Source: Planifilum fulgidum (GTDB lineage: Bacteria; Bacillota; Bacilli; Thermoactinomycetales; DSM-44946). Taken from it: a stretch of 64,000 bases of DNA. Position 1 is the first letter of the stretch; the number at the start of each line of letters is the position of its first letter. Below are positions 12,851 to 15,407 of the stretch, in pieces. Where the stretch lies: the NCBI RefSeq assembly GCF_900113175.1, contig NZ_FOOK01000001.1, positions 118,160 to 182,159 of the forward strand, read 5' to 3'. The notes beneath the pieces are model-generated. The model was not told where the DNA came from and ran no database searches. It saw only the letters and a program-made list of their open reading frames with translations. Both the position numbers and the translations under genes were made by a program.

Positions 12851-12932
12851 ATTTCACCACACCAATCCATCAAACTCTCTATATAGTGTAAATGAATCCA
12901 GTTGAATGACACGGGGAAAGGAGCCGAGAAGG

Positions 12933-13286
12933 ATGGCAAACGGCAATAACGACCAACAAGCCGAACAGTTTGCCCGCCAACTTGAACAACGGATTCAGCA
13001 ACAAATCTTGGATTCCATCAGCCGACTGTTAAAGGAAAACAACCCTCCCGACCAAGAACTTTCCCGGCCCACCGCTTCCCAACCGATCAATCTAACGGCT
13101 CTCTCCGCACCGACGCAGAAAAGGCAGCAACTTGAAAACGTCCTGAACGGTGTCGACAAATTGGTCAGCAACGCGATCCATTTCGGATTGAGCGTGATCG
13201 CCAGACAGAATAAGGGGTATCTGGAGCAGATCCAACAACAATTAAAAGCGCAGATGCAAAACAAAACTTCCTCCAATAAACAATAA
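12933..13286 (+). CDS. uncharacterised small protein, first gene of the novel cluster
   Basis: 117 residues, not recognised. ATG at 12933 follows GAAAGGAG. It is rich in Gln and Asn, with a helical N-terminus (EQFARQLEQRIQQQILDS), a polar middle, a hydrophobic helix (LVSNAIHFGLSVIARQ), and a Gln/Lys-rich tail. There is no signal peptide and no cysteine. It precedes, on the same strand, a run of small proteins with a shared C-terminal motif but lacks that motif itself. The tone (small, Gln/Asn-rich, helical, clustered) suggests a structural or spore-associated role, which is inference only. Confidence 0.6.
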   Translation: MANGNNDQQAEQFARQLEQRIQQQILDSISRLLKENNPPDQELSRPTASQPINLTALSAPTQKRQQLENVLNGVDKLVSNAIHFGLSVIARQNKGYLEQIQQQLKAQMQNKTSSNKQ

Positions 13287-13697
13287 ACGGGAGAAATCCG
13301 ATCGCGCCTCACCCCCCTCGAAACCTCCCCCCAAATCGCCCTTTCGGGTAGATAGCGGCACGTTCCAACCGCAAAACTATCAACGGCGACGAACGCCACG
13401 GCCCAAACCATCCCCCGTATGATCCGGCGGATTGGGCATAGACAGCAAAACAATCTCTTCAAATGGCCGAACCTTTCTTCCTTGCAAGTAATATAGTATA
13501 TCGTAAGCGAAAAGATTAGACGAAATAGGTTGCTCAATTAGTGACGGCAATTCTCCAAAAGCAAATTGGCAACGGCGGCATCATGGTCCGGTCTTCAAAC
13601 CTTCTCATCATTCACGGTTAAAAGAACGAAAACCCGAAAAGGGCAAGGAAGCCAGACCGCGGTTGGTTGATGAGCATCATAGAAAGGGGGGTTTTCC
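13287..13697. other. 411 bases without a recognisable gene
   Basis: No credible gene on either strand. The minus-strand open frame across this stretch runs antisense to the small gene at 12933. An AT-rich patch at 13485-13515 (AATATAGTATATC) could hold a promoter for the downstream plus-strand cluster, but no good -35/-10 pair was found. Confidence 0.5.
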
Positions 13698-13958
13698 ATG
13701 CATGCCAGAAAAGCAAAGAAAACGCGCGGCCGCATCCAGCACAGCAAGCGGGACCCCGGCTATCTGCGTCTGCTTATCAGGATCCATCGTTTAGAAAAAA
13801 AGATTATCCGCCTTGAACGGGCACTTGCCAAGGTGTCTAACTTCGCATTTGTGGGACCGGTCAGCGGAGTGGGCAATGTCATCGTTCAAACTCCGACAAA
13901 CCTCGGCGATGCCAGCCTCCTCAGAGGCAACCGAAACTCCGCCACCAACACGGGATAA
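13698..13958 (+). CDS. novel-motif small protein, copy 1 (divergent)
   Basis: 86 residues, starting at ATG 13698 after AAAGGGGGG. The N-terminal half is strongly basic (HARKAKKTRGRIQHSKR) and continues into a Leu/Lys/Arg amphipathic helix (RLEKKIIRLERALAKV). The C-terminal 40 residues carry the cluster motif: VSNFAFVGPVSG, GNVIVQTPTNLGDA, then RNSATNTG at the end. No known family is recognised. It has the same C-terminal plan as four downstream proteins but a different N-terminus. No signal peptide or membrane segment. Confidence 0.75.
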   Translation: MHARKAKKTRGRIQHSKRDPGYLRLLIRIHRLEKKIIRLERALAKVSNFAFVGPVSGVGNVIVQTPTNLGDASLLRGNRNSATNTG

Positions 13959-14026
13959 CACCGCCTTCCCCGACAAACCGTTTTCCAACCCTCCAAGGAC
14001 TGATTCCTTGAAAGGAGGTGAAACCC

Positions 14027-14356
14027 ATGAACAATCTGAAGCTGGGACAACAACCGAATCTGGGACAACTCGATTTCGTTCGATCCCTGTTGGAGAACCA
14101 GTCAAGGATCAATCCCCTTCAAATGCAGCCGGATGTGGGCAACATCGTCGCCAAAGTTCCCGAGCTCGTCCAAAGTGTGTTGCAATCCGTCACCAGGCTT
14201 TCCGCCGCTAGATCCTCCGGGAACACTCCTCCCGCCGCCATGAATCTCATGAACATGGCAAAAAACCTCCCTGTCAACACAAATCCCATGGCCCCGGCCA
14301 ATCCCGATTTGACAGCCCAAACCTTAAAAGGAGGTGAAAAACATGGCCTGCCGTAA
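14027..14356 (+). CDS. uncharacterised Asn/Gln-rich small protein within the novel cluster
   Basis: 109 residues, not recognised. ATG at 14027 follows AAAGGAGGTG. It contains NNLKLGQQPNLGQLDFVRSL, a central helix (VAKVPELVQSVLQSVTRLSA), and a low-complexity Asn/Met/Pro tail. It lacks the cluster's C-terminal motif. Its last 14 bases overlap the start of the next gene, whose ribosome binding site lies inside its coding sequence, implying coupled translation. It resembles the gene at 12933 only in size and in having one central amphipathic helix. Confidence 0.62.
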   Translation: MNNLKLGQQPNLGQLDFVRSLLENQSRINPLQMQPDVGNIVAKVPELVQSVLQSVTRLSAARSSGNTPPAAMNLMNMAKNLPVNTNPMAPANPDLTAQTLKGGEKHGLP

Positions 14357-14564
14357 GAACAATAAAATCGTGGTCATCTGCGGGCATCGCAGGCGCCGCC
14401 GCCGTCGCCTCAGCTTGGAGCGCGTTGAGGCGGAAGTGGAAAACTTCGCCGCAACGGGCGCCATCAGCGGGACTGCCAATGTCTTAACTCAAGTGCCGAC
14501 CAACTTGGGTGATGCGGTCGCGATCGGCAGAGGCAGCGGCAACTCCGTCACCAATACCGGGTAA
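14343..14564 (+). CDS. novel-motif small protein, copy 2
   Basis: 73 residues. ATG at 14343 follows AAAGGAGGTGAAA. It has three parts: a short hydrophobic strand (KIVVICGH), a run of seven arginines, and an acidic helix (LSLERVEAEVENF). These lead into the shared motif (TGAISGTANV, QVPTNLGDAVAIG, GNSVTNTG at the very end). No known family is recognised. Alternating small, Asn and Gly residues suggest beta structure that could self-assemble; that is inference. It is followed by a short GC-rich spacer before copy 3. Confidence 0.78.
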   Translation: MACRKNNKIVVICGHRRRRRRRLSLERVEAEVENFAATGAISGTANVLTQVPTNLGDAVAIGRGSGNSVTNTG

Positions 14565-14627
14565 TGTGGGGGCCATTCTGCCCTTTGTCAGCCCCCTCCT
14601 TTCAATCTGATCAGGAGGTGAGCCAAT

Positions 14628-14852
14628 TTGGCTTGCAGAAGGAAGAAAAATGTGGTTGTGGTCGTTTGCGGGCAGCGCAGACACCGCCATCGTCGTCTGT
14701 TTGTCGGAGGCGCTGAAGCGGAAGTGGAAAACTTCGCCAGGACGGGTGCCATCAGCGGAACCGCCAATGTCGTAACTCAAGTGCCGACCAACTTGGGTGA
14801 TGCGGTCGCGATCGGAAGGGGCAGCCGCAACTCGGTCACCAATACCGGGTAA
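14628..14852 (+). CDS. novel-motif small protein, copy 3
   Basis: 74 residues, starting with TTG at 14628 (CAGGAGGTGAGCC upstream). It has the same plan as copy 2: VVVVVCGQ strand, a His/Arg-rich stretch (RRHRHRRL), GAEAEVENF, then TGAISGTANV, PTNLGDAVAIG and RNSVTNTG. Its 3' half is nearly identical in DNA to copy 2, while its 5' half has diverged. The start codon is unusual, but the N-terminal alignment with copies 2 and 4 supports it. Function unknown. Confidence 0.76.
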   Translation: MACRRKKNVVVVVCGQRRHRHRRLFVGGAEAEVENFARTGAISGTANVVTQVPTNLGDAVAIGRGSRNSVTNTG

Positions 14853-14905
14853 TGCGGGGGCTTTTCTGCCCCTCCTTCTCGCATAAATAGGGAGGTGTTG
14901 CAAGG

Positions 14906-15121
14906 GTGGCAAGGAAAAATCTGATTGTGGTCCATTGCGGACATCGCAGGCGCCGTCGCCGTCGCCTCAGCTTGGAGCGCGTTGAGGCGGAAGTGGAAAA
15001 CTTCGCCAGGACGGGCGCCATCAGCGGGACCGCCAACGTTGTAACCCAAACGCCGATCAATCTGGGAGATGCGGCCGCGATTGGCAGGGGCAATGGCAAC
15101 TCCGTCACCAACCTCGGATAA
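14906..15121 (+). CDS. novel-motif small protein, copy 4
   Basis: 71 residues, starting with GTG at 14906 (GGGAGGTG upstream). The LIVVHCGH strand, seven arginines and LSLERVEAEVENF are almost identical to copy 2, including at the DNA level over roughly 90 bases. The C-terminal motif reads TGAISGTANV, TPINLGDAAAIG, GNSVTNLG. A GGGGGC-TTCTC-GCCCCC hairpin follows directly. Function unknown. The lack of a signal peptide argues against classical secretion. Confidence 0.76.
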   Translation: MARKNLIVVHCGHRRRRRRRLSLERVEAEVENFARTGAISGTANVVTQTPINLGDAAAIGRGNGNSVTNLG

Positions 15122-15173
15122 TGCGGGGGCTTCTCGCCCCCCTGCTCCCACTTCAATCGGGAGGTGAAACCGT

Positions 15174-15407
15174 TTGGCCGGGGAAATCCGAAACGATAAT
15201 GAAGCGATCAACGTCATCGTGCTGGTATTCGGTCCAGGCGGGAGAAGAAGACGCGTGTTTGTCGATGACGAAGAGATGGAGATCGAAAACTTTGCCAGTA
15301 CGGGTGCCGTCAGCGGAACCGGGAATGTGATCACCCAAACGACCATCAATTTGGGCGATGCGGTGGCCACGGGAGGAGGCAGCGGCAACTCGGTCACCAA
15401 TGATTGA
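15174..15407 (+). CDS. novel-motif small protein, copy 5
   Basis: 77 residues, starting with TTG at 15174 (CGGGAGGTGAAAC upstream). The N-terminus differs from copies 2-4 (EIRNDNEAINVIVLVFG, then GRRRRVFVDDEEMEIENF). The motif is kept: TGAVSGTGNV, QTTINLGDAVATGG, GNSVTND at the end. The arginine run is shorter and the acidic helix stronger. It closes the array. Function unknown. Confidence 0.75.
   Translation: MAGEIRNDNEAINVIVLVFGPGGRRRRVFVDDEEMEIENFASTGAVSGTGNVITQTTINLGDAVATGGGSGNSVTND

Follow-up and report, generated by a model that had tools for sequence, protein, structure and literature searches.

A seven-gene cluster of small proteins in Planifilum fulgidum is a candidate spore coat or crust module of one bacterial order

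Seven small plus-strand genes of Planifilum fulgidum probably constitute a lineage-specific, mother-cell-made module of spore coat or crust proteins, a reading that we hold with some confidence and derive from the gene sequences. They occupy positions 12933-15407 of the 64,000-nucleotide stretch of DNA analysed here (the window). A first-pass annotation of this DNA had offered a mother-cell-made spore layer as one explanation, and the proposal gains indirect support from a sigma-K-like promoter, from the confinement of the module to a single spore-forming order and from a CotS-family neighbour in one relative; against it speak the first base of the -10 element, the failure of a dpaA-derived matrix to pick out most of the promoters, the presence of CotS beside the module in just one genome, a distribution that is patchy within genera, and neighbours in the window that belong to cellobiose uptake and cobalamin. 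Lineage-specific coat proteins are a kind already known. Among the titles and abstracts of the literature on Thermoactinomyces and Thermoactinomycetaceae spores, we found no coat-protein study.

The cluster opens with component A (12933-13286; 117 residues), a Gln/Asn-rich protein with a predicted amphipathic N-terminal helix (FARQLEQRIQQQILDSI), followed by C1 (13698-13958; 86 residues), in which a Lys/Arg-rich N-terminus precedes a core common to all C proteins. Component B (14027-14356; 109 residues) is rich in Asn, Gln, Met and Pro, and its end is overlapped by the start of C2 (14343-14564; 73 residues), which consists of a hydrophobic strand, a poly-Arg segment and the C core. The remaining genes encode C3 (14628-14852; 74 residues; TTG start), C4 (14906-15121; 71 residues; GTG start) and the acidic C variant C5 (15174-15407; 77 residues; TTG start; pI 4.3). 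All are on the plus strand, and strong AGGAGG-type ribosome-binding sites precede most of them. The inventory given in the first-pass annotation, seven small genes of 71-117 residues in 2.5 kb with two motif-less Gln/Asn-rich companions, is borne out, Gln and Asn accounting for 33/117 residues of A and 22/109 residues of B.

A direct DNA repeat of 217 nt, 83-84% identical between copies, underlies C2, C3 and C4, which are recent tandem copies. Intact orthologs of all seven genes, in unchanged order, are present in a congener (G002), with dN/dS values of 0.07-0.38 (A, 0.35; C1, 0.21; B, 0.38; C2, 0.15; C3, 0.28; C4, 0.15; C5, 0.07). The direct repeats, together with the ordered and intact congener orthologs at these ratios, argue that the genes did not arise by chance, and the comparison indicates that all seven are real, constrained and under purifying selection. 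Loss of the frames in close relatives, which the first-pass annotation had named as grounds for abandoning its view, is not seen: the frames are open in relatives. Judged by eye, without a predictor, none of the cluster proteins has an evident Sec signal peptide, as for coat proteins that are assembled from the mother-cell cytoplasm.

The five C proteins align over their C-terminal ~44 residues, with 19 invariant columns that include G37, S40-G41, N44-V45, Q48, N52-L-G-D-A, N65-S and T68-N. The resulting core, SGxxNxxxQxPxNLGDA...NSVTN, occurs in five copies in the cluster (C1-C5), so that the shared C-terminal motif noticed at first pass stands, but not the universal 'TGxxSG' and 'GNSVTN' in which it had been cast, since C1 reads VGPVSGVGNV and RNSATN, and C3 reads RNSVTN. 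The N-termini vary, being Arg/Lys/Cys-rich, composed of His-Asp repeats in Thermoactinomyces daqus or acidic in C5 of the window; C1-C4 have pI values of 11.4-11.9 and runs of seven Arg. AlphaFold2 returned a C model (pLDDT 49.7) without a confident fold or secondary structure, and a self-assembling beta structure, a resemblance that had been raised for these proteins, is neither supported nor refuted by such a prediction. Two C-related proteins outside the canonical form were encountered in relatives. One is a 190-aa protein (genome G003; L054:5199-5768, minus strand) with several C cores per chain, adjoined by a mycosin-like subtilase gene; the other is a weakly C-like small protein (G016; L057:8077-8322, plus strand), Asn/Gly-rich and without the long Arg tail, about 3 kb from the cluster.

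The module has a recurrent architecture. Its larger loci contain A, then usually a C gene, then B, then one or two further C genes, and this A-C-B-C order is kept in relatives of several families, some genomes being devoid of one part or endowed with extra copies. The A proteins have in common an N-terminal helix motif, xLSxQLExxIxxxIYxxL, and their two family groups are matched by profile comparison (probability 94.4, E 9e-8). For B, the corresponding comparison across families (probability 29) does not demonstrate homology. Because the B family groups are not demonstrably homologous and the congener alone has an ortholog of the window's B protein, 'B' is best taken as a positional label, for a slot that equals that of the hydrophobic B proteins of relatives. 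The AlphaFold2 model of Thermoactinomyces B is predicted to be all-helical, at low confidence (pLDDT 60.3).

The first-pass annotation had recognised no domain in these proteins, and this assessment survives every search made: nothing above noise was obtained with the cluster proteins in Pfam, NCBIfam, PHROGs or PADLOC, and profile searches of solved structures (PDB sequences) returned no significant match. The strong profile match to a known family that would have contradicted it was thus not encountered. In Pfam, the enlarged C family (37 proteins) gave stray single-member matches only and no match to PF10676 (GerPA/GerPF); Coat_X was absent from all 37 at E 0.1, as well as from A and B. Nor did Pfam yield a match of the C proteins to curlin or chaplin, or of the cluster proteins to SASP. 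An antifreeze protein among the PDB matches (E 0.06 and 0.037) was dismissed as not significant, and homology of C to GerPA, suggested by the string 'NxGD...NS', was rejected at an hhalign probability of 0.1.

With a profile of C1-C5, C genes were detected in 17/101 related genomes, with five genes each in the window's own genome and in the congener; named carriers include Laceyella sediminis, L. sacchari, Thermoactinomyces daqus, T. mirandus and T. vulgaris. A core-only profile extended the family to 20/42 genomes of the order, in 4/6 families. Outside the order, nothing credible was found in 398 class genomes (order members included) and 398 phylum genomes, about 750 sampled genomes of class and phylum; the sole match (G296) was a 36-aa frame with an internal stop. 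Phage and plasmid collections searched by tblastn with one Laceyella C protein gave no match. The order in question is spore-forming, dpaA being present in 23/23 and gerPA in 22/23 of its sampled genomes, and in this sampling C is found only in spore-formers, as would be expected of coat proteins. Within the order, the distribution is patchy even inside genera (G004 has C and G019 does not; G021 has it and G023 does not), and in three genera the module is present in one member and absent from another (G004/G019, G021/G023 and G012/G017). A accompanies C closely: it was found in 16/42 genomes of the order, that is, in 16/20 C-positive versus 0/22 C-negative genomes (Fisher 3e-8, a value inflated by closely related, non-independent genomes and obtained with a profile built from the very loci that it scores).

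A promoter-like element precedes A (12860-12890, plus strand; CACCAATCCATCAAACTCTCTATATAGTGTA) and is conserved upstream of this gene in eight genomes from four families, in the form CACCAAT-N13-TATATNNTRTA. Across 42 genomes, this pattern has 10 matches, 8 of them upstream of A and 2 elsewhere with no sensible gene downstream, compared with 5 matches for a reversed control pattern. A second copy lies before C1 (13470-13500, plus strand; AACCTTTCTTCCTTGCAAGTAATATAGTATA), inside a block that is almost fully conserved in the congener. A third match in the window's genome, to a looser version of the pattern, falls inside an hsp20-like gene and was discounted as chance.

In Bacillus subtilis, dpaA and gerPA are controlled by sigma-K. 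The promoters that we derived for the order follow [AC]ACC-N16-CATATGATG for dpaA and CACA-N16-CATAGGATR for gerPA, and the cluster element agrees with both in its -35 and in its 16-base spacing; at the first base of its -10 it has T, A or G, versus the C typical of sigma-K. When the regions preceding A, divided into two separate sets of eight, were compared with the B. subtilis consensuses of five sigma factors, only sigma-K was enriched (z 2.6 and 2.7; positive control dpaA, z 8.5), and sigma-G was not (z -0.2). A matrix built from the dpaA sites alone is too narrow and did not single out most A promoters. These regulatory sequences suggest that the cluster is probably expressed late in the mother cell under sigma-K-type control. 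Taken together order-wide, the dpaA (L132-L153) and gerPA (L102-L131) loci have a tight sigma-K-type consensus of their own, [AC]AC[CA]-N16-CATANNATR, which can serve to chart the late mother-cell regulon of the order.

Genomic neighbourhoods differ between carriers. In the window and in the congener, the cluster is flanked by cellobiose PTS (cellobiose-uptake) and cobalamin genes, which are uninformative. In one relative (G040), a CotS-family coat gene (TIGR02906, 183.5 bits versus a cutoff of 172.7) flanks the module, an adjacency seen in this genome only and missing from two of its congeners. Upstream of that gene lies a 220-aa Ser/Lys/His protein (L060:8187-8846, minus strand) composed almost wholly of SSSSSDCHKHKK repeats, which has no match in NCBIfam and may resemble CotG-type coat proteins. 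In G003, glycosyltransferase and sugar-nucleotide genes surround the module, and two of them have a DUF3880/Glyco_trans_1_2 architecture. Downstream of the cluster in Laceyella sediminis is a 1053-aa protein (L064:7419-10580, plus strand) with ITSEKI/HLVDHAI-type repeats and a WIAG-tail domain (NF012201, above cutoff).

The scheme that we infer, from sigma-K control and spore location to co-assembly and every step of assembly, would begin with the sigma-K-type promoter switching on A, the second copy of the element serving C1, B and C2-C5. At a late stage of sporulation, the mother cell would thus produce small structural proteins that end up on the forming spore, in its outer coat or crust. 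The common core would be the piece through which all C proteins co-assemble; being the only part found in every one of them, it is the likely assembly element. The variable N-termini, rich in Arg, Lys, His or Cys and acidic in C5, would decorate the assembly, probably exposed or crosslinking, and might attach to coat material of opposite charge or form crosslinks by way of their cysteines; the connectors would be A and, in relatives, the helical B proteins. A bolder and rather doubtful version would endow this one order with a self-assembling system not described before, in which the C core polymerises into a spore filament or lattice, with A and B as its connectors, and interchangeable N-termini (basic, His/Cys-rich or acidic) set the spore surface of each species.

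Several other functions can be envisioned for such proteins. A mother-cell assembly made at sporulation time outside the coat itself, exosporium-like or parasporal, would be backed by the promoter and the distribution just as the coat is, and could accommodate the WIAG-tail repeat protein downstream in Laceyella; the CotS neighbour in G040 points instead to the coat, and we regard such a location as unlikely. The promoter also bears on extracellular or aerial-hypha sheath proteins of the chaplin/rodlin or curli kind, an idea in keeping with the filamentous growth of thermoactinomycetes (carriers include the filamentous genera Laceyella and Thermoactinomyces) and with the Asn/Gly/Ser-rich, strand-like alternation of the C core. 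Against a sheath stand the sigma-K-like rather than sigma-A promoter, the lack of an evident Sec signal peptide, of chaplin or curlin matches and of secretion genes in the cluster, which together render it improbable.

The strongly basic character of C1-C4, with their high pI and seven-Arg runs, would suit a SASP-like function, in which poly-Arg binds the DNA or RNA of the spore core and packages it. It is, however, the variable part of C that is basic, the conserved core being non-basic and C5 acidic, and neither sigma-G enrichment upstream nor a SASP match was observed, so we give this function little credence. The several small tandem paralogs, and the hydrophobic B proteins of relatives, might evoke bacteriocin or RiPP precursors or some other antagonistic system that strings many variants together. 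The C proteins, however, have their conserved half at the C-terminus and their variable half at the N-terminus, the reverse of leader-core precursors, and modification, export and immunity genes were not seen nearby in the loci read, making an antagonistic role highly improbable. The coat or crust module remains our preferred reading. If it is correct, the order would possess its own coat candidates, together with a set of paralogs, a conserved promoter and genera that offer natural pairs with and without the module; the few characterised coat-assembly proteins would be joined by a small, modular core on which N-termini can be swapped.

Curlin repeats (CsgA) and chaplins resemble the C proteins in the regular spacing of Asn, Gly, Ser and Gln only; the window proteins differ from both in having no signal peptide evident by eye and no profile match, and, unlike CsgA, each window C protein has one core and no intragenic repeats. 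GerPA/GerPF (PF10676) are likewise small, Asn/Gly-rich, multicopy and without a signal peptide, and in this order their sigma-K-type promoters match the cluster element in -35 and spacing; the C proteins depart from them in their basic N-terminus and different core, in line with the failed profile alignment. The CotV, CotW, CotX, CotY and CotZ crust proteins of B. subtilis differ from the cluster in gene order and copy number, with neither Coat_X nor any other sequence match between them; C, whose motif is different, is little over half as large as CotV, and there is no homology. Like the cluster, these crust proteins are small, clustered, lineage-restricted and without signal peptides. In the B. 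subtilis CotVW filament, CotV provides the strand core and CotW the connecting helices (PMC12630357), and the strand-bearing, helical and Cys/His/Arg-rich partners of the module would represent an analogous division of labour.
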